This document shows positions 42,775 through 57,431 of a DNA stretch of 64,000 bases, one piece after another. The notes beneath the pieces were generated by a model that did no database searches, was not told the origin of the DNA, and saw only the letters and a list, made by a program, of their open reading frames with translations. Every line of letters begins with the position of its first letter. The stretch's first letter is position 1. Position numbers and translations under genes: made by a program. The stretch is from NCBI GenBank assembly GCA_016647705.1, contig CM028333.1, positions 9,250,616 to 9,314,615 on the forward strand, read 5' to 3'. The stretch comes from Eucommia ulmoides (taxonomy: Eukaryota; Streptophyta; Magnoliopsida; Garryales; Eucommiaceae).

Positions 42775-43971
42775 TGTAGACACGACATTTTAACCGTTCC
42801 GGAAAAAAATTATATTTTATTTTAAAAATTATTTTATTTTTATTTAAAAAAATAAAGAAAAAAGAAAAGAAAAAAAAAGAAAAAAAAGAAAAGAGAGATA
42901 AAAGAAAAAAAGAAAAAAAATAGAAAAGAAAAAGTTTCCTTGTCAAAATGGGTTTAGGTTTCTTTTTTCTTTTCCTTTTAGGTTTTGTTTCATTTTCCTC
43001 GTCGAATTGGAACAGGGTGTCCTAAGGTTTTAAGGATTTTTCACTTTCCATCCTTATTATAAATAGGACCCTCCTCCTCATAGTTTAAAAACTAAAAAAA
43101 AAGAATAATAATAAATAAAAAAAAATAGAGAAAAACTCTTTGGAGACATTTAAAAATTGAGAGGAAAAATCCTTATAGAGTGATTATCATCGCAAATCCT
43201 TACGGGAAGTTGTCTACGCGAGAGAAAAGCCCGAGTATCGATATTCTTGGCCTAGAACAAAAGAAAAACTAAAAAATCAAGTCGTCAGATGATCCGATGA
43301 AAACGCCGGAGTGAGTTTCTCGTGCTTAAACCTAACTCCGATCGTTAGGTGAATGATGTTTTATTATTTATTTTGCTGCATTTTTTTTTATTTTGTATTT
43401 TTTTTTGCATTTTTTTATTTTTATTTTTATTTTATTCTTCTTATCAAAACCCTAAAAAATAAAATAAAAATAAAAATAACAATAAAATCTTTTATTGGTA
43501 GGAATTAATCCTTACGAACCTTAAGTTGAATTCGACGATTCGATAAATCGCGAGAGAGTTTTCCGTATCCTCGTTTCCATTTTCCGACCCGAGTAGAATT
43601 TAGAAATGAATGATTTTAGGAGATTTCTTCCTCGGTAGATTTTTCGTGGGATTTCGTTTAAGTTTCGAAAAGATTAATTTCAACTAAATTGTTTCCATGA
43701 GCCTTCCTCAATTCTCATATCCATAGAATTTAAGGGAATTTCAAATCGAGACTTCTTTAAATGATTGGGCAAACTTAAAATAAATATTTTTGCATCCATC
43801 TAGCATATTTACTTCTTGTATTATTTAGATGACATGTTTAGTACACTTTCACCACTCACACTTTTTTTTTTCTACATATAGTTTTTTTTTTTTAATTAAA
43901 TCATTATCACATATAATCAGGTTAATTCACGTAATATTCATATCAGTTTGTATTGACGAATTTAAATTAAA
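42775..43971 (+). repeat. 3' LTR, first part
   Basis: Starts TGTAGACACGACATTTTAAC after a purine-rich tract (caaagaaggg at 42,761-42,770). It is cut by the nested MULE at taaattaaa (43,963-43,971) and resumes at 56,780. Confidence 0.9.
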
Positions 43972-44250
43972 AGGATGCTGACTGAACAGTCCCCAAACAC
44001 GCTGAAAACTACCGATTAAACCCTCTGACATTTCCTTGCACCGTCTGATCCTTTTGCCATTTTAGTGACGATATTGCCCCTCTCATGCGCCTCACGCTTA
44101 ACAGCACATCTTCTGTTGCTAACCTCCCCTGTTTTTCGGGATCTATATATGGTAACGAATTCAGTGTATTGCGGACACTGTATATCATTTGATTCTCTTC
44201 GAAAAGAAGTGTTAATCGCATTTTTGGAGATTTTTTCTTGATGTAATTGA

Positions 44251-44834
44251 TGTTACATGTAACATTTAAAAATATCAGAAAAAAAATTCATGCCATCCGT
44301 TGTATAATCATGTTACATGTAACATTTTCAATGTCACATGTAACATCTGCTCGCGTTGCATGCATATTCATGGTGTGCAAAAAAATAAAAAATGTTATAT
44401 GTAACATCCAATGTAACATTACTGATTATGTGACCATAACGATGATTTCATTGATGTTACATGTAACATCCATTTTGAAACTAAAAAATGTGAATATGTG
44501 TCCATGACGATAATTTCATTAATGTTACATGTAACATTTGCACGTTCTGCCAATAATTCCATATCCAAAATGGGGTTGTCGTTAAACATTACTGAATATG
44601 TCATTGATGTTACATGTAACATCTATTTTGAACTAGAAAATATGAATGTGTCCATGACGATAATTTCATTGATGTTACATGTAACATTTGCACGTTCTGC
44701 TAATAATTCCATATCCAAAGTGGGGTTGTCGTTAACCATTATTGAATATGTGTGTCCATAAGAATGACACATGTAACATACTTTTGACCCCCAAAAAATG
44801 TGGATATATCTTGAAAATGTTACATGTAATATTG
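44251..44834. promoter_or_regulatory. Palindrome cluster 1 (3' end of the MULE)
   Basis: Exact TGTTACATGTAACA sites start at 44251, 44311, 44455, 44523, 44608 and 44673. Variants occur near 44332, 44393, 44766 and 44819. Several sites sit in repeated phrases such as cgataatttcattgatg, showing local duplication. Confidence 0.85.
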
Positions 44835-46230
44835 GAAGGTTGGTTCTCAGAATTGTAGGTTTTTTCCCAGTTTGTGTCTCTAAGACGAAACCCAAACTAT
44901 GCAAATAAGTGTCAAACCACCAAAATAATAGTTCGTGCATCCAAAAAATAGTTGTGTTGCATTTTACACAACACAAAACAACAAAAACCCAATTATAGCT
45001 TTCATACAAAAATAAAAATCTAGCTACGTATGATGTTTAAACCAAACAAAGACAGGTTAACAAGTAATTTGTTCTAATCCATACAAAACAAAACTCTGGT
45101 TTTTTAGTTGTTCTGTGCTTCTTCAGCACGACGTGTTTCGTTATTTTTCTTTGTTTGGAAGTCATCAAAAGTCCAAGATCTGGGTGGATCATTGAGGAAT
45201 TTGTGCACAAGTGCTGCTCTTTCTCTTCTGAAACCTTCAATGCCATAATTAACGTTGATTTGTACGCTGTTGAATATGCTCTTCATGATATGAATTATAG
45301 CAACACCGCAATCAACGATGCAAAATATATTATATTAATAGAATTCATCAATAACTGGTGTGTTTGGGTAACATAATTCATTAGCGATAAAGTGAAGTGC
45401 ACTTACACAGATGATTCTTGATCTGGCACATTATTGGAGTTTGAAATTTTAGCATCCAACAGTTGATATTCGCTCGCTTCCTTTGACAATAATGCATTAA
45501 CATAACGAACCTACATTTGACCATGGAACAAAAATGGTGAGGATTACTCATTCAACATTGCTCTGGCACACAAAAAAGCTTCAAACCTATTTATTAAAAC
45601 TCACAAGACTTTTTGCATTCTCGTAAAATCTATCAACATCTCCCGGACGTCAGAGGTTGATCGAATTGTAGTGCGTCCATTTCTTCTCTTGCTTATCACA
45701 GACAAGCAGTGTCCAGTGTCCAGTTGATGATGTCAATCCTAAAGTATTTATTAGGAAATGCACAAATCTATAGTTGTCGAAAAATACTTCTATAATTTTT
45801 GGGTTAAGATTGTCTGCCAATATTTTCTTGTCCCCTTGTGTAATCCAAAACTACATATATTTGAAAAACATATTCAAAACATTAGTGACACGCAAATGTG
45901 TGCATGCAAATCAAACAAAAAAATAAATAAATAACACATTCAAAATGAAAAAAAAAAAATGTAAAAGTTTGATTACCCAGCAACAACTATTGATGAAATA
46001 TGACCTATTTGGAAAATCATGACCAATCCCTTTTAAATCACTTGTAACTTTTGCTTGATCAAGAGACATCATCTCCATACATCCATTGATGACCTAAAAA
46101 ACATTTTATTAATCATCAACATAATGTTATAATCATCTGTATATTTCAAAAAATAAACAAAAAAAGTGTAAGTAACATGACCGGCGTGTTGCATGTTATA
46201 TGTGACATACATATATAGGCTTGTAAAAAA

Positions 46231-46347
46231 TGTTACATGTAACATTGACACAAATATCACAAGATGTAACTATTAAAAATGTTACATGTAACATTACACC
46301 TGAAAAGTTACATGTAACATCGCAAAAATGAAATGTTACATATAACA
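46231..46347. promoter_or_regulatory. Palindrome cluster 2 (intron of the ULP1-type gene)
   Basis: Exact sites start at 46231 and 46280, with one-mismatch forms at 46306 and 46334. They lie between the exons ending near 46,086 and starting near 46,470. Confidence 0.8.
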
Positions 46348-49059
46348 TTTCGCCCTTGTTATAATAATAAGTGACTCACAATATTTGAGAGTTGAGTTTC
46401 CCACATCAATCCAATCAAATCAATGATGGATACTTGAGCGAACACCCATTCTGCTCCCCAAACAAATACTCTGCAATAATATTAAAAAAGTAAAACAAAA
46501 ATTATGTACATCTAATGTCCGTTGTTCCAAAGAATAGCATATTTGACACTTAAACTTACCCACATCCATCCTCCCATATAATCAGATTGAGTTTGTCCCA
46601 ATCATCGTCTACAATCATTTTTGCAACGGCGCTATTACGTGGAGGCAATTCTTGAGGTTCATCATCGTTGTGGGCCAATGTACTTTGCTCATTGCTCTTC
46701 ACAACATCAGGGACTGGTGCATCATACTTTTTCTTCAATCGTCGCGGTTTCTTAACAGGTACATCGTATTTGTGGACCGATTCATCATCAGTCTTCCGTG
46801 TCCTCATGCGACTCTTGACGTTTTTTACAAGTGATGTTGGTGTTTCGGTTTCAGCCTTTGAACACGTAATGCGCCTAAGCTTAAGTTTTGCTGGAATTGA
46901 CGTCCTTGGCGGTAAATTGTGGGCAGCAATGATTGATGCTTGCCTGACAATCACGTTATCTCTGTCTTCAAGCTCACACCGGTAAAACTTTGTCAGACTA
47001 GACATTTTTTCAGTATGTTCCATATCTTTCTCTACTGTCTGTGTTGCCGAATGCACAACAGCTTCTTCAAGCTTTTCCACCATCCTCTCTTGTTGTGTAA
47101 CATTGTAAACTTCAGCTTCTACCAGCTTCTCGTCTGTTTTCTTTTTCTCTTCCATTAACCTCTCTATCTCAGCCTGCAGTTGGTTTTTCTCATCACCAAT
47201 TCGCTCTATCTCACCTTTCATCTGCTGAATCTTTTTTTTTTTTTTCATTCTTTTCTTCATCTTCTTGTGCTTCGTCCTCGCTTTATATACCTTGTGTAAT
47301 AGTTTCTGATTGCTTTCGACATGCTCTGTTAAATTTTGTGAACCTCCACAAAATTTAAGAACGTCCACATCAAATAGCTGCGATATTAACAAATCAAATG
47401 ACGGCATATCGTCAGCAACAGACACCTCATCTTCTCCCTTAATCTTAGCACTAGTATTAGATGAACTAGTCTCTGTGTCACCATGCACAGGTAGTACAAC
47501 ACTTGCCCTAAGCTCCGACACTAGATATGATGTTAGTCCCCGGAAAACCTAAACTCATCAGTAAAAAAGTGCAAAAACAATGTTATGTATCAGAAAAATA
47601 CACTAAAACATCCCCCCCCCCCCCCCCCAAATGTGTTACATATAACATTTTATACCCTGTTTTTTATTGTAACACAAATTCTGTTACATTTAACAAAAAA
47701 AAAACCACCTGGTATGCAGTTAAATTGTGCAATCCAAGGTCGGCCGACATTGATGTTGTCATGTCCCGTTTTAGAAAATTAGGGGAAAAAAACACACACC
47801 TGATCAGCGGTTAAATTATGTAAATCTAGTCCGGGAGCAATCGATGTCAACGCCATCATATCTAATTTTAAAAAACGAGGGACTGCAACCATCTTTGATG
47901 CCACTGGCCGGATCAACCTTGAGTGCTCGCACAACCAAAACTGGAAAAACAACATAAAAACATTTTGCAGAAACAGTTATATATTATGCATAATTACTAC
48001 TGAAAATTAGCACGATTGTTATTACCTGCAAAGCAATGACACATCCAATTACAGAGCTCGGTCTATGATATCCACATTCAATTGATGACATCAAATTTGA
48101 ATGAATGGCGCCAGCCCATTTGTAAGTTGCCATAACATCCAAATCCTCGACAATGTTCAGGTTTGATACTCGAACATACTGCCCCTTATTACTGAAGAAG
48201 CAGGTTGTCAACAAAAGAAGACACAGTAGTCAAACAACATCCTTCACACTTTCTTCGTCTTGTTATTTGATGGCAGCATGTAACATTTGCTTTAACTGTA
48301 CAACACTTACCTTGTTCGTGTTCAAACCTTGACGCGCTAAGAATACACAATCTTGCTTCTTTGCGTACCTATCGGGCAGTTGTACATCACCGCGTGGCAA
48401 ACCAAAAATAAGTTGCACATCATTGCTTGTGAACTCCACAAAGCGTGGCCCCAATTTGAATTTTTTTTTTTCCGGATGATAGCACCGAATAATATTCACT
48501 ATCAAACTGTCTTCAATGGGCTGAAACCTTGTCATCTTGATCATTCATCAGTGCTTTCATGGTGTTCCAAAAGGGGGTGCGTCGTAAATAAGATATATGT
48601 TCATCACCTAGTTATAATTCATTGATTACTGATGAGACCTGTGATAGGTTACATCGGTATTTGATCAGTCCTGATGGGGCTTGGCCAATTGTCGCTACTC
48701 CTTGTTTGCTTGTTGACGCTATTGGCACATCTGGGACATGTTTCCCCCAAAATGGAAGACACATAAATCATTAAATACTAAAAACTGTTCCAAATTCTAA
48801 AAATAAAGCAAATAAGAATTGTGTAAAAACATTTTTTTTCCCATCCTCAATATCATCTGCGCTTATATGCGTGTCATAAGCATCAACAGCCAGTACTGTG
48901 TTGTGATGAGCATCACCAGCAGGTAATGTGTCATCTGCGAAATGTATATTAATGCATAAAAACCCCCACACAAAAGATGTTACATTTCCTGCACTCTAAA
49001 ATCTCTTTCCAACAACATGCAATCAAATTTCTTGTATACAGAACAAGAATAGCCGAAAA

Positions 49060-49423
49060 TGTTACATGTAACATCTGTGAACAAATTTTGAAAACATCGA
49101 TAAAAATGAAAAAATACATTAATGTTACATTTAATGTATTGATGTTACATTTTCACAACAACTAAATCAAAAAATTTGGACACAATATGACAAATTTTTT
49201 AGCACACAAACCAGTGAAAAACTAAAAAATGTTACATGTAACATCTGTGAACAAATTTGAAACATCGACAAAAATGAAAAAATACATTAATGTTACATTT
49301 CATGTATTGATGTTACATTTTCAAAACTGAACATGTTACATGTAACATCTGTGAACAACTTATAAAACACCGACAAATTTTTGAGCACACATCAGTAATA
49401 ACTGAAAAATGTTACATGTAACA
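49060..49423. promoter_or_regulatory. Palindrome cluster 3 (first intron of the ULP1-type gene)
   Basis: Exact sites start at 49060, 49230, 49334 and 49410, with half-sites (tgttacattt) near 49,121, 49,142, 49,289 and 49,310. The sites are embedded in a repeated unit of about 170 bp containing ctgtgaacaaatttt. Confidence 0.85.
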
Positions 49424-50235
49424 TTTGTGCGCAAATTTTTTGAAAAACAACGACAATAGCTGAAGTACTACTTCAAAAATCTGGTAAAAAATGATTCGCA
49501 CCAAATATATGAAATTTGTGACTGGCGTATTGTCACCACACCAAGTAAATCATGATGTACGGCTAAAATCACATAACTGTGCACGAAGAAAATCGATCCA
49601 GATCAGGTTGGCATACTTGTATGGAGAAATCACTAGACATATACAACTGCACTAAACAAATCACAATATCGCTTGTAGAAATCACAAAATGCGATATGCA
49701 AAACAGGACTCTATCATGCACAAATGATAACTAAAAATTGTCACTCCTAGATGTTCAATATACGGTTGTATGCCGTAAACTACGAGTCCAAACGCATAAA
49801 CTAAGACCTATCGTCTGATTTCTACGCCGAAACAGTTGAGATCGTCGTAAAAAATTGCATCAATGTTACCTGCGTCGGAAAGATTGACAGGATCATCCGT
49901 AGTATTGGGTTCTTAGTGATCATCTTCTGCCATGTAGACACCATTATGAACTAATTGATACAAAAATCAAGGTTACGGGACCGACAATGATAGGCGCCGG
50001 CGTTGCAGAATGTTAGGGTTTCGATCGTTTAGGGAATATAGAAAGTTCTCCTTTCCAAAATTGAGGACCAGTTATGCTAACGAGACGTGAATACCAGAAC
50101 CCATTATTTCAAAAAAAAAAAAAAAACGTATTTTCCCTAACAAGTTATCAAATGGAGGTTTAATTTTGGGGTGTAATCCTGTGTTACGCATTTATTTATG
50201 TGACCTGTACAATATGTAACAAAAAAATGTAACAT

Positions 50236-50431
50236 TGTTACATGTAACATTTGGTGCTGAGTCCATGTTGTATGTAACATTATTTTGTATGAAAATAAAG
50301 GGTTAGTTACATTTAACATTTGCAATTAAAAAAAAAAAAAAGGGAATGTTTAACTAAAAAATGCTAATGTTACATGTAACAACAAAAAAAAAAAAACGTT
50401 ACACTAAAACATGATAGTGTTACATGTAACA
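50236..50431. promoter_or_regulatory. Palindrome cluster 4 (between the two MULE genes)
   Basis: Exact sites start at 50236, 50368 and 50418, in the spacer between the 3' end of the transposase gene (50,644) and the start of the ULP1-type gene (49,933). They could act on both transcription units. Confidence 0.8.
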
Positions 50432-51171
50432 AATCCATTATTTTCGTGTTGAAAAAATCATCAACAACTTCGCCAAAAACACACTAACAAAAAATATGGA
50501 ATGCAAAAAAAAAAAAAAACATTTATTGTTTCATTGTTGAATACAAATGTCAATTACTAGATATGCCAAAAATCCGTTTTTGTCAAAAAAAATGAAATTC
50601 AACAGTCGTCTCTCGAATCCAAAAACATAATCTCTTGATATACTCAGTCGTATGTCAACGGGTTTTTGCATGTCTTCCTGTTGTGTCTGCCCATTTTTCC
50701 ACATCTCCCACACTTTCTTTCTTTTATCTCACCTCTTAACGATATTCTTACTTTCTTCGGTCGACCTGGTTGCTTCTTTGACAATGGTAGTAATATAATT
50801 GCTTCGCTCTCAACCCACATAGGTCATTCGATTCTTGGGATTGCATAAATTTCTCTCGAATAGGTCTCTCGGTAAAATTTGACGCCGAAGTATTCTTCTA
50901 TGTAATCATGTGCCGGCAAGCCGCTCTTGTTAATCGTTGCACAACCGTGTACGCAAGGGAACCCCTTTATCTGCCATTGTTTACACGAGCATAATCGTCC
51001 CACCGTATCAACTAGCACTGATAGGGATGAATGAATCTCATAACAGCCATCACCAGATGAGTTAATATTCCATGTTCTTTCTTCATTAATCAACTCGCAC
51101 ATTTGTTATCCCAAAACAGTGTAATATCACCATCCATATTTTTTTATTCTTGTCTTTTATCGAACATTAGG

Positions 51172-53286
51172 TGTCACAACCCGTCCCGGACACCCATCAT
51201 CCCGGGGCTGGCGTGACTACAGCATGACATCACCAAAACTCAAATAACCTAATAGAAATGACAATATACACCCACTGTATAATACATACATCTATTATAG
51301 GGGGCGTACCCGGCCCGAAGTTTTTCTAACTAAAAGTATTTATCCATGAACATTCTTAGGTTCGCCTTTGACAGCTTCTCTCAATCGTCCACATGACTCC
51401 ATCACATAGCTCTACCTAGTGCCAGTAGGGGACCGACTCCTAACTGTTGTACCTGCGAGTGTACTGCTTTCTTAGTAAAACATTTTTAAAATATTAATAC
51501 GTTCTAAATATTTCCACAATTTAGTATGGATCCAGCACAAGTATATAAGCAATGAGAATAAAGCGATATAGATAAGTTTCATCCAAATCCATCTAGTATA
51601 AAATCCTACCAATCATCATAATAAATAATATCAAATCAACCGATATACGTAAAAGACCACATCTCAAGCACCAATCTTAGACACACATCTCCAACACACA
51701 CACACTGGTCAGCCCTAGTGATCATTTTAACCTCACGATCGGGAGTTGCAACGGTACCGTAACATTCATAGGAATGCCTTCTTACGAAATATCCACACCC
51801 CTTCTTGGAGAGAAATATAATCCACACCCTTTACGGGGAGAACAACCATGGCATCGTCAAAATCAAATACAGTATCATCGAATCATAACTCAATAAATAT
51901 TGCCTACTCAACATCGTCAAATCACCACGTCTACCACTTTTCTCAAAACCAGCTTTTAAATTCAAAAATCATATTTCACAATTTCTTTTAAAGAAAACGT
52001 CCGATTTTATCAAAACCACTTTTCCACCATTTATTTTTTTAGAAAACCAGGCATTTTTAGAAAAATAGATGTTTCCTATTCTCTTTTTAAAAACACCGTC
52101 TAATTTCACCAAATCTAGCGGAAATTCATTTTCAACTTCTTTTTGAAAACTATCGAAATCCTCCGGAAATCCAGTTTACCAACTCATTCAAATCCTGCTT
52201 GATCCATATCATTTATAAATTCATACAGTTTAAATAATCACATATTTCATCATATATATACATAGAAAAATAGTTTGACAAGAAGACAGTACAGTCACCT
52301 CGATATCTGTTTTGCAACACTGACACTGCCCGCACTTTATCTGGACGCCAGTGCCTATGAACCTAATAGTGACAGATTCTAAATTAATATCTTATCTAAA
52401 ACATCCTAATCATGCAATGCGGACCCTATAGTCCGAATCGTTACTAATTTTATGTACCACGTACTTAAAATTAATTAATCGTCATGAAATTATTATGATT
52501 TTAGGATTTTTAACACTAACTAAAATTTAATTTAACGAGAATTAATAATCGATTGAAGTTTCACCTGTTTCCGAAACGTTTGGCGACCACGAGATGGGGT
52601 TTAGATTTTCCTGGGGTGGTTTCTGCAATTTCTCCCCCTCCCCCCCCCCCCCTCCCCCTTTTTTTTTTTTTTTTTGCGCCTACTGTTTCTGTTTCTGTTT
52701 CAGTTTGCGATCTTGACGACCGACGCTGGAGAACTCTCGTCGCCGACCAAAACTCTCCGCCAACCTTCACCGTGGGCGATCAACACACATACCCGCAACA
52801 GCATAGCAGAACACACACACACACTCACGCACAATCTCTGTCTGAACACAGCAGTCCCACCGACGACAACCCACGACGATAACACACCGCCGGAGTGAAC
52901 GACCTCTCTGTCGAACGGACGGACATCACGCATACATATAACAACGGTCTGAACGATGGACAAAGCACACACACACATACACACACACAAACGCAGTTAA
53001 CGACGAGCCGAACATATTACCGAACACTTACAGGACGACCGGCGACGATCACCCACCACCTGTACCGAACCACCTTCTCTCTCTCTCCTAAAATTTGACA
53101 ACGGCACACCCACGAAGCTCTCCGTCGACCAAACACACCACCCCACATGATCGTCGACCACCGAATACCCACGCACACCCACAACCCTGTAATCGGAACA
53201 CCCTGCCTCGCCGACTGATCAGACGAAATTCCTTCCTACCGTCGATCACGAACCCCCTCCTCCGATCTTCCCTCTCTCTCTCTAGA

Positions 53287-53331
<45 letters not shown>

Positions 53332-53778
53332 CAGAATGGATTCCCGACCCTCGATCATGAGTTTCTTGATCCTTTCACATGCATGATTTTAGTGGGTCGA
53401 TTTCATCCACGCATGCCACGTCGTTTTTTCGCTCCAACTCCCTGCCAGCCAGCTACTTCCTCCGACCGCCGGTTTATGGGTATGAATTTTTTTTTTATTT
53501 AATTGCTCTCTCCTCCCCCCAATTTCCTTCAAACCTTGATTTTAATCCTTTTCAACTTTTAAAAGTTTCTAAGATTTTCAATTTCACCCCCTGAAAGTTT
53601 CATTTAAATGTTAAATGTCAATTTACCTCCCTAAATTAGGATTTACTGTTTCTATATTTTCAATTTGACCCCTAGACTTTCTATTTGAATTTTTAATTGT
53701 CCTAGTTTCACCCTGAATTTTCACAATTACCCTGAAATACCACTGAAATGACGTACATGCTACGATTGAGGTCTTACA
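51172..53778 (-). mobile_element. Solo LTR of family 1 inside the MULE transposase gene
   Basis: On the minus strand it begins TGTAAGACCTCAATCG and ends GGGACGGGTTGTGACA, matching both ends of the solo LTR at 25-27 kb. The flanks repeat ttagg (51167-51171 and 53779-53783). At 2,607 bp it is longer than the other copy, partly from C, T and CA runs (about 52,637-52,675; 53,290-53,330). It separates GHYGEMTSNMAEYFNS from the SWIM finger exon. No internal retrotransposon sequence remains. Confidence 0.9.
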
Positions 53779-54358
53779 TTAGGTCCATCCACCGTATTCT
53801 AATTTTGTCAATCAACAGTATTGCAGGCAAATGACGATATTCACTTATCCAAGAGTTGAAATATTCCGCCATGTTTGATGTCATCTCACCATAATGTTTT
53901 CCCTGAAAAAGAAAGCATTATTGAATTTCATTGCAGATAGATCGTGCATGAATCGCTGAACTTTTTCTCCGCCTTCGTACATTATCTGATCATACAACAT
54001 TTTATAAACTTCCGGTGTGTGCCCATACGCCAACCCATTCAATTTCTGAATCATTAATTCCTTGAGTGCGGTGTTTCTCCCAGTCATTGTAGCCCTTAGA
54101 TTCATCTTTAAATGCAATAGGCAATATGCATGGTGGCAATTTGGGAATACATTCCGTACTCCCTCTAATATACCATTATGATGATCTGAAATAAATGTTA
54201 TCACAAGATCCGCCGCAACGATCTTTCTGAACTCAGATAAAAACCAATTCCAATTCTCATCATTTTCTACATCCACAATTGCAAATGCAATTGGGAACAT
54301 CCCTGCAAAAACAACCCAATCACAAAAAATCTCAATCAATAAACACATATGATATATT

Positions 54359-54372
54359 TGTTACATGTAACA
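54359..54372. promoter_or_regulatory. Palindrome in a transposase intron
   Basis: A single exact TGTTACATGTAACA in the intron between the exon ending with EKDGNQ and the exon starting GMFPIAFAIV. It is the only site between the flanking coding exons. Confidence 0.8.
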
Positions 54373-55739
54373 TACGTTTTTAGTTTTTTTAGTGTCATCT
54401 GAAAAAATGTTGTACTATACACTAAATGAAAATCATTTACTGACATCACCTTGGTTGCCATCTTTTTCCGTCGCAGCTAATAAATTTCCTTTATATCGGC
54501 CGGTAAGAAATGTTCCATCAAGGGACACCATTGGTCAGCAGAAGCATCAACCATGAATACATGCTTCGAATGCGACAAACATGCGTCTGAAATGTCCCGT
54601 GTCCTCATCATAATCGAGTGTAACATGATTCCCGAGGTTCGTCTATCTACATTTATCAACATACCATCGTAATTGGTCTTACGATGTTGAATAATCCCCA
54701 AACACGCTGTTTCTGGCCTTTTCTACACCAAGCCAAGCATTGCGATACGAGATCTCAATACCATATTGCCTCTTGAAATTGTCAACTACATCAATAGGGC
54801 GCGTTTTTGGGTTTGTCCATACGTCATCGATCAAACAACCAGAAACAATCTCCAAGCTCATTCGTTTGTTTTTGTTTTTGCGGAAAGCAGACCCACAAGT
54901 GTGTTTATTTATCAGATTCCGAATGTAGAATATACCATTTTCTAGCATTACACGTTCGTGCACAAACCATGGGTATTTATTTTCCTCTCTAAGTGCACGT
55001 GCAGCTGTCACGGGCACTTTGTCATTTTTTAAATAATAGAAATTGAATCCAATCTTAATTGCATATTTTTTTAATACATCCCGGAATTCGCTTGTTCCGC
55101 CTCTGAATTTTTAACCCTCCTCTTGGATCCCATTAGCCCACTGAGATGACAATAATACCCTGTCATTACTCCGCTGCAAAATGTCGTCGTAACTACCTAT
55201 GTAGTCAAGTTCATCTTCGTTGTCTCTACCACTGTTTAACAGTGCAGTGGCACTCGTTGATGTACCATTCAATCTACTAGAATCGTTCAGTCTTATTTGG
55301 ATGCATATATCCAACAACTCAATGTTCTGATGCGCTGTTAGCAACATCATCTCCTCAAAGTCGTTTTGGTCAGCAAGCATGCAGTTGGAATGGCCATGCA
55401 ATGCGTATGACAAGTCAAATTTTGACTTAACTAATTCTGGCTATTTGCTTACAATCTTGTTACACAAATCACTAATGTTGTTGTTGTTGACAATCCTCAA
55501 AACTGCATTCGCCTTCTCGTAATTGCACATGCATGCAATCGAAAAATGACCCCTGCTGACATACCAATAACCATCAGAACACATGATCCCCTCTTTTTTT
55601 GCAAAATATAATATGTTACATCTAATATCACCATATATCCACACTGTGGAGTACCTATGTTAAATGTGACATACCCATTTTCCGTTAAAATGTAACAATG
55701 CCTAACAATGTAACACGGTATATGTACAAATATTATGTG

Positions 55740-56154
55740 TATCAGCACACAGTTATGCTTATGTTACATATAACATGACCCTTTTTCGTTAAAATGTAAC
55801 ACGTCCTAATAATGTAACACGCTATGTGTACAAATGTAATGTTTATCAACACACAATTATGCTTGTGTTACATGTAACATGCTATACGTACAAACGTTAT
55901 GTGTATCAGCACACAATTATGCTTATGTTACATGTAACATGTATCTTTCCTTGTTAAGAAAATGTAACACTCTATATGAATGTAACACGCTATGCGTACG
56001 CCGTTATGTGCATGAACACACAATTATGTTTATGTTACATGTAACATACACCTTTTTCTTGTTAAAAAATGTAACACGCCATCAAAAATGTAACATGCTA
56101 TACGTATGACGTTATGTACATCAACACATAATTGTGCTTGTGTTACATGTAACT
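55740..56154. promoter_or_regulatory. Palindrome cluster 5 (first intron of the transposase gene)
   Basis: Exact sites start at 55866, 55926 and 56033, with variants at 55762 (TGTTACATATAACA) and 56141 (one mismatch). The region is a degenerate tandem repeat with shared phrases such as acacaattatgcttatg and tgtaacacgctat. It lies just downstream of the inferred promoter and exon 1. Confidence 0.85.
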
Positions 56155-56558
56155 TACTATATGTACAACGTCATGTGTGTTATTGTACTGCATTACATTT
56201 CAATCCAAAAAACTACTATGTATATCGATCAACAACTAAGATCACTTAATCATGCCTTCGTAAAGCATTTTCATACACGTATGTTCGACAACAAGAACTT
56301 CATCAACCAAAAACTAGGTCTTTGTACGCGTTACTGTCGAAAAACCCTAACTTGATAATCAATATGTCCCTAAAAATCACTACGATTGGCATATATCAAA
56401 TGAGGATGTTTGTTACCTGTTGTTGATCGGCTCGGAATGATTTATCAATTGCCTTTCCATATCTGCTCTGCTTCGATCGTCTCTCTCTACGTCCACGGCG
56501 ATTTCTTGATTTTGAAATTTGAAATGCAATGTATATTAGGAAAAACACCATGATTTGA

Positions 56559-56570
56559 TATTTATAGTAT
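56559..56570 (-). promoter_or_regulatory. Putative TATA box of the nested MULE transposase
   Basis: The minus strand reads catactataaatatc about 100 bp before the ATG at 56,460, followed by a purine-rich exon and a donor (caacag|gtaaca) at 56,416. Confidence 0.45.
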
Positions 56571-56779
56571 GTTTTCACAACTGAAAAACTGGATTGATTA
56601 CTGGAAATCATTTTCGCGTACAACGGGAAGGCAAATCGTCACCGAAATGTGTACGATACTCGAATTTGGGACTGATCTGTGCACAGTAAATTCAGCGAGG
56701 GACTGCGTTATTCGGTAAAACATGAAATGGTTCTATTGGTAGATTAAGGCTAATAATGGGTTCAACCGGTAATTTTCCC

Positions 56780-57431
56780 TAAATTAAACCCTTTAGTTTT
56801 TTGTTTTTTTGTCACTTTTGCATATAAAATAAAATTCATATAATCTTAGTTTTTGCATTCATATTTTCATATTTATTCACTTATTTGAGTTTGCCCATTT
56901 AAAGTAAAGAAGTCTTCATAAAACATATATAAATACTCCCCGGGGACCATCCTTATCGAATTCTTAATATTCAATAAGAGGTTATACCGGAGGAACATTT
57001 CAAAAAATCCAAAAACTTGTCCCACCTTATTTGTGAAAATACCAAAAAGATTTTATAAGAAGAAAATGATTTCAAAAGAAAATAAAATACTCGGACTAAA
57101 CTAATTGGACTTAATTGGACATAAGATAACGTTTTTGGACAGGCGTCTTGGGGTGCCTAACACCCTACCCAAGCGTAACTGACCCCTGAGCCTTTAAATG
57201 AATCTTTAGTTTGACCGTATTTTTTTGGAGTCAATTTTTTACTTAGACTTTTTAAATTGTTTTCTAAAAAGTCGGTGACCTAGCACACCATTTAAATCCA
57301 ATACTAAGTGGCGACTCCTTATTTTTTTTTAAAATGGCCTAAGTATTTTTTTGAAAGCCGGTGCTTTAAAAACCCTCTCTTCTTAAGATTATTTATTATT
57401 TTTTTCTTTTTTGGAAAATCAAGGCGTGTCA
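56780..57431 (+). repeat. 3' LTR, second part
   Basis: It resumes taaattaaaccctttag and ends aaggcgtgtca, matching 37,120-37,758 of the 5' LTR. Confidence 0.9.

Follow-up and report, generated by a model that had tools for sequence, protein, structure and literature searches.

What purpose does a 14-bp palindrome serve that recurs many times inside one transposon and nowhere else around it? We analysed a window of 64,000 nucleotides from Eucommia ulmoides that contains a Mutator-like element (43972-56779, genes on the minus strand) carrying this palindrome, TGTTACATGTAACA, and predicted to use it for self-recognition, as Arabidopsis VANDAL elements use the motifs bound by their VANC proteins. 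The predicted limits of the element are right, since a perfect 9-bp target site duplication, TAAATTAAA, flanks it on both sides (left copy at 43963-43971, right copy at 56780-56788). Its terminal inverted repeats match best at 17 of 22 positions, with an offset of 33 bases at one end and of 3 at the other. Transposase gene remnants (50644-55659, minus strand) contain DBD_Tnp_Mut, MULE and SWIM stretches; in profile searches PF10551 (MULE, 5.3e-13) and SWIM (2.9e-6) are above cut-off, and DBD_Tnp_Mut (2.3e-4) is below it. This copy of the element is decayed, as the in-frame stops in its transposase frame indicate, and the gene is split by a later, nested solo LTR (51172-53778, with TTAGG duplications at 51167-51171 and, by eye, at 53779-53783), which was excised as 51171-53789 in the analysis.

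The second gene of the element (45104-48544, minus strand) comprises DUF1985-like stretches (48263-48544, 47984-48229 and 47779-47976), a coiled-coil-like stretch (46556-47548) and a weak Ulp1 C48-like stretch (45650-45850), all on the minus strand. The Ulp1 match (PF02902) has an E value of 0.04 over 22 residues, which is below cut-off, and in the profile search PF09331 (DUF1985) was not reached by the window's own DUF1985-like exons alone. The best of these exons is 45-49% identical to the DUF1985 of a sister family described below (family B; E 1.8e-16 at 49%). Places on contigs C92, C118, C158 and C5, each adjoining a transposase 83-86% identical to the window's, match PF09331 with E values no higher than 3.2e-4, which do not reach the curated cut-off. 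A run of 17 C at 47612-47628 adjoins one-mismatch forms of TGTTACATGTAACA.

All 19 exact copies of TGTTACATGTAACA are present in the element at their predicted starts, with none elsewhere in the window and none in 100 dinucleotide shuffles of it. Six (44251, 44311, 44455, 44523, 44608 and 44673; span 44251-44686) lie at the element's downstream end, partly in a 150-bp tandem repeat, and two (46231 and 46280; span 46231-46293) lie between the Ulp1-like and coiled-coil-like stretches, probably in an intron. Seven (49060, 49230, 49334, 49410, 50236, 50368 and 50418; span 49060-50431) occupy the spacer that separates the transposase gene from the DUF1985 gene, a transposase intron (roughly 54304-54452, splice sites by eye) holds one (54359-54372), and three (55866, 55926 and 56033; span 55866-56046) are found upstream of the transposase gene in 60/104/108-bp tandem repeats. 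Allowing up to two mismatches, the window has 36 sites, 34 of them inside the element, versus 0.44 expected. The nested solo LTR is free of the motif, and the exons were likewise rightly predicted to lack it: none of the 19 exact sites overlaps the putative coding stretches (binomial 2e-5), which as drawn make up 4,403 of the 10,188 element bases, with one open frame trimmed at a by-eye splice acceptor; left untrimmed, that frame would share 2 bases with the site at 54359. These stretches also hold just 2 of the 34 sites with up to two mismatches and 2 of 67 half-sites. Several sites are tandem duplicates, so the count of 19 is inflated; by flank similarity the 19 sites reduce to 11 independent contexts.

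Using the assembly of 946.7 Mb (391 contigs) and the reversed motif as a control, we found 6,566 genome copies of TGTTACATGTAACA versus 2 of the control, a contrast that sets the motif apart from words equally dense in unrelated DNA. A search with the window transposase exon yielded 150 scored matches at 63-100% identity, and exact TGTTACATGTAACA is present in all of the best 30 places, the window included, at 1-8 copies per 3.4 kb. Read over 10 kb, three of these family A relatives carry 18, 19 and 14 copies, and the words most strongly over-represented in them are fragments of the motif; six motif positions are common to many family A copies. The first A-motif cluster on contig C1, locus L001, has 7 copies and shares about 163 bases of terminal region with family A (79-81% identity; 75% versus locus L066) and little of the interior. 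On this sequence likeness, L001 is probably a non-autonomous family A relative.

Is the palindrome private to this family? A profile search for DUF1985 returned 105 matches, often paired about 5 kb apart, the best 30 of which were fetched as loci; they define family B, which is known here from its DUF1985 loci, some of which pair up as both genes of a single element. Words over-represented in two 10-kb family B stretches assemble into a different palindrome, AGTAGATATCTACT, which occurs exactly in 30 of the 30 fetched loci, where TGTTACATGTAACA occurs in none. Conversely, 33 loci of family A, representing 30 transposase places, hold no AGTAGATATCTACT site even with up to two mismatches. Family B DUF1985 matches PF09331 at 6.5e-9 and the plant mobile domain (PMD) at 3.6e-5, the latter below cut-off. 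Genome-wide, AGTAGATATCTACT has 4,120 copies versus 6 of its control. It also occurs in tandem repeats at C1:269950-270668 (235-base steps) and C1:12306574-12309226 (steps of about 220 bases), and a variant of the B motif at C1:12399874-12431649 repeats every 4,918 and later about 4,957 bases, a spacing suggestive of tandem units about 4.9 kb long.

A third motif came from 6 places chosen from the transposase match list at 65-70% identity (family C). All 6 loci carry TGTTACATTCAACA, with 36 exact copies in total; none has exact TGTTACATGTAACA, and two have a single one-mismatch A site each. Compared with TGTTACATGTAACA, TGTTACATTCAACA keeps the half-site TGTTACA and changes TGTAACA to TTCAACA, and its exact copies occur in either orientation (5 and 7 on the two strands in locus L072, 6 and 5 in L075). 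With 16,912 genome copies versus 15 of the control, it is the most abundant of the 14-mers. The palindrome of the swapped C half-site, TGTTGAATTCAACA, has 1,634 copies versus 1 of the control and is absent from the 6 family C loci; we call its carriers D, known here from TGTTGAATTCAACA sites alone. The 14-mers of the form TGTTACATNNAACA give 36,754 strand matches in all, made up of 13,132 from A, 16,912 from C and 6,710 from the other 14 inner pairs, versus 275 for the control. CG and CHG sites are absent from all four 14-mers. The other 14-mers in sister families rule out a motif private to one family and without counterpart, and the 1,634 copies of TGTTGAATTCAACA refute the idea that TGTTACA is an obligatory half-site. 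The corresponding idea of one fixed half held better for B, where AGTTGATATCAACT, the palindrome of B's other half, has 149 genome copies (most of the 50 listed are single sites) and the mixed form, AGTAGATATCAACT, has 690, versus the 4,120 of AGTAGATATCTACT.

In the first part of C1, about two thirds of adjacent gaps are shorter than 1 kb for each of three motifs, versus less than 1% expected at random; cluster counts on C1 use B positions up to C1:12,300,506, A positions up to 15.3 Mb and all listed C positions but the final two. Up to 15.3 Mb, 4 of 10 A clusters have at least 4 sites, none of them with a C site within 5 kb, and 3 of the 6 smaller A clusters do have a C site within that distance. 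Of the sites listed for A and C, none comes within 5 kb of the two TGTTGAATTCAACA clusters in the first 15.3 Mb (at 5.87 and 14.29 Mb); farther along C1, a TGTTGAATTCAACA site and an A site lie 409 bases apart (19,286,358 and 19,286,767; compared by eye). Other TGTTGAATTCAACA clusters on this contig include C1:21053021-21053534 and C1:31140864-31141136. Segregation of the motifs between families is thus good but not perfect. Motif counts pooled across loci count some elements twice, as the elements in L041, L042 and L045 are read again in L065-L067, and the elements in L009, L021 and L005 again in L068-L069.

The original prediction proposed testing whether the motif changes together with the DUF1985-like protein, and the motif does differ between the DUF1985 and transposase subfamilies of A, B and C. 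In 36 transposase exon sequences (30 A, 6 C), clade and motif correspond one to one, with one label change on the tree; the split between A and C has 100/100 support in an unrooted tree whose bootstrap is not fully settled. The exact sites of each clade share one motif version. When the transposase region is aligned, several motif positions fall together, the A copies having the A version and the C copies the C version within differing surroundings; homology of single aligned sites is not certain, because the motif itself may draw the alignment together. For the second gene, a search with the window's DUF1985 exon gave 150 scored matches, from which 35 pairs of transposase and DUF1985 exon were hand-picked (2.4-6.0 kb apart, all close because they were picked so). 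The 20 pairs with A-like transposases have a DUF1985 exon 83-93% identical to the window's, and 19 of them are family A elements in which the motif was read, with the DUF1985 exon 3-4 kb downstream. In the 15 pairs with 64-68% transposase identity, the DUF1985 exon is 63-68% identical in 12 and 55-57% identical in 3 inverted ones; L072 is the only one of these 15 in which the motif was read. The DUF1985 gene is inverted relative to the transposase (67-68% identical to the window's) at C69:543912-550014, C10:44172618-44177028 and C6:55846632-55853076.

The motif hence goes with the second gene in A, in B and in one C case, and it goes with the transposase too. Since it tracks both, co-variation alone does not name the reader: the proposal that the DUF1985 protein reads the motif gains from the match with DUF1985 subfamilies, but the equal match with the transposase does not single that protein out. 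The one-to-one correspondence in 36 sequences would also fit a transposase that itself binds the motif in the service of transposition, and perhaps of its own regulation, like the subterminal repeats of other DNA transposons such as En/Spm with its TnpA, and the motif-rich L001, which keeps the terminal region and little interior, points in the same direction. However, the sites also occupy the spacer, the transposase intron and the probable second-gene intron, and the outermost exact copies are 279 bases away from one element end and 733 from the other; we regard transposase binding as unlikely.

Alternatively, there may be no reader, and the motif may have been spread by tandem duplication and gene conversion within elements and carried along by transposition. 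Part of the copies do lie in tandem repeats, and in the transposase intron with the site at 54359 a 15-bp motif unit occurs one to three times in relatives (two to three times in 11 of 30, intact or mutated). Conservation at TGTTACATGTAACA within family A is only modestly raised, with 0.72 of motif copies exact versus 0.54 for other non-coding 14-mers, 20% of which are conserved as highly as the motif. Passive spread is nevertheless difficult to reconcile with the 11 flank contexts in the window and the 7 to 12 in three family A relatives, with the avoidance of coding stretches by every exact site, and with the 36 exact clade C sites, all of one version and none of the A version, so that we consider it quite unlikely. 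Strong purifying selection on single sites within family A was also considered and set aside, as the signal is weak only. A host transcription factor using the sites as transposon promoter or enhancer elements is also quite unlikely in our estimate: some clusters do lie upstream of genes, and palindromic sites are common for dimeric host factors, but the fetched A, B and C loci are without exact copies of the other families' 14-mers, where a shared factor predicts otherwise, and sites are also found in introns and at the downstream end.

On balance we favour a VANDAL/VANC-like self-recognition system carried by this MULE family, with the DUF1985 protein as candidate reader, a reading that we hold to be reasonably probable from the sequence comparisons above. 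The palindrome would be the cis half of such a system. The DUF1985 protein of the second gene would bind the 14-mer either in dimeric form or as a monomer with two domains, so that each 7-bp half-site is read by one arm. With sites across introns, spacer and ends, the protein could load along the element's own copies, deleted ones included, and loaded copies would be kept free of silencing, presumably through loss of methylation, as VANC does for VANDAL elements. Given the different 14-mers of the sister families, the action of each reader would be limited to its own relatives. We count against self-recognition the decay of the window copy, the clusters with mixed motifs, the modest conservation, the lack of convincing helical spacing, the window's DUF1985 exons that do not reach PF09331, and its Ulp1 match below cut-off. 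The predicted VANC-like strategy stands in that relatives carry the motif and subfamilies differ in it; it needs amending in that at least four 14-mers of this kind, the palindrome among them, occur in the genome. Similarly, TGTTACATGTAACA is indeed palindromic, as the argument for a dimeric reader requires, but the most abundant 14-mer, TGTTACATTCAACA, is asymmetric, which leaves the plain dimer argument incomplete.

A more tentative proposal, possible but in our view less than probable, accommodates the asymmetric form: a two-armed reader, with one 7-bp half-site per arm, in which families change one arm at a time. Denoting the half-sites H1 and H2, TGTTACATGTAACA (H1.H1), TGTTACATTCAACA (H1.H2) and TGTTGAATTCAACA (H2.H2) would be three states of one system, and AGTAGATATCTACT a further state with the same 7+7 geometry. 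Switching would proceed via the asymmetric pair. With such an intermediate, incompatible anti-silencing systems could evolve while recognition is maintained throughout. At least four high-copy 14-bp signals, related yet distinct, are present in one genome, three of them tied to transposon families, and the rule that links reader to signal, and its change without a non-functional intermediate, becomes directly testable. If the DUF1985 protein reads these sites, it may offer sequence-addressed tools for removing DNA methylation. Judging by the portion of the literature covered here, transposon anti-silencing has so far been worked out mainly in Arabidopsis.

According to the parts of the Arabidopsis work drawn on here, VANC21 binds YAGTATTAY in VANDAL21 non-coding DNA and VANC6 another motif (PMC5735166), VANC21 removes methylation (PMC5735166; PMC10398659), VANC proteins are marked with DUF1985 (PMC5735166), and VANDAL elements have a 9-bp target duplication and terminal inverted repeats that are either lacking or short and degenerate (PMC6446971). 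By these partial sources, family-specific motifs in VANC systems are already published. To the same extent, the elements described here have in common with VANDAL21/VANC21 and VANDAL6/VANC6 a MULE transposase, the 9-bp duplication, weak terminal repeats and a DUF1985 second gene, together with dense short motifs in non-coding DNA, growth by tandem repeats and a difference in motif between families. The target motifs of VANC21 run in one direction in the part of that study used (PMC5735166), whereas here A and B are palindromic and exact C sites lie on both strands; we take a single orientation to be a trait of VANDAL21 and not a definition of the group. The half-sites here start with A or T, followed by GT, and AGTA or AGTT occurs in the Arabidopsis motifs; the likeness is weak and could be due to chance.

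Sasaki 2022 (EMBO J), on co-evolving anti-silencing systems in eudicots, is said to describe motif diversification and helical periodicity, and may already contain motif diversity of the kind found here. Our motifs, in contrast to the periodicity said to be described there, show nothing convincing in helical spacing: the largest uncorrected Rayleigh z over nine periods is 0.9 for A, 3.7 for B and 3.2 for C, in a test that excludes the loci overlapping longer ones (L035, L041, L042, L045, L005, L009 and L021). Another element protein with many short sites is TnpA of En/Spm, which has a 12-bp subterminal motif and a reported role in demethylation; unlike family A, En/Spm belongs to a different superfamily and has its sites near the ends.

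Ulp1-carrying (Kaonashi/KIU-type) VANDALs recognise specific motifs, as stated in the part of a review that we used (PMC13317346, with Sasaki 2022 as its source), and as far as that source goes the element here would resemble them in the order of a DUF1985-like and then an Ulp1-like stretch, the latter a match below cut-off here. The host proteins MAIN and MAIL1, which contain a plant mobile domain and are linked to a short DOWN motif (PMC7156037), are TE-derived, with a domain weakly related to family B DUF1985 (the PMD match given above, below cut-off); in the passages of that paper drawn on, they differ from the elements here in being host genes that act at host promoters and are required for TE silencing. 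Within the searchable parts of the literature, matches to the 14-mers were confined to tobacco small-RNA work, where the small RNA Nta-miR26a contains TGTTACATGTAACA (PMC3306195), probably by coincidence. In the VANDAL/VANC literature looked at, which comprises parts of the papers and lies outside Sasaki 2022 EMBO J, we found no report of paired half-site motifs. Arabidopsis VANC motifs, as given in those parts, are 8-9 bp long and non-palindromic, whereas the putative binding sites here are 14-bp pairs of half-sites. The new part is this form of the signal: two facing 7-bp half-sites, which form a symmetric pair in A, B and D but an asymmetric one in C.
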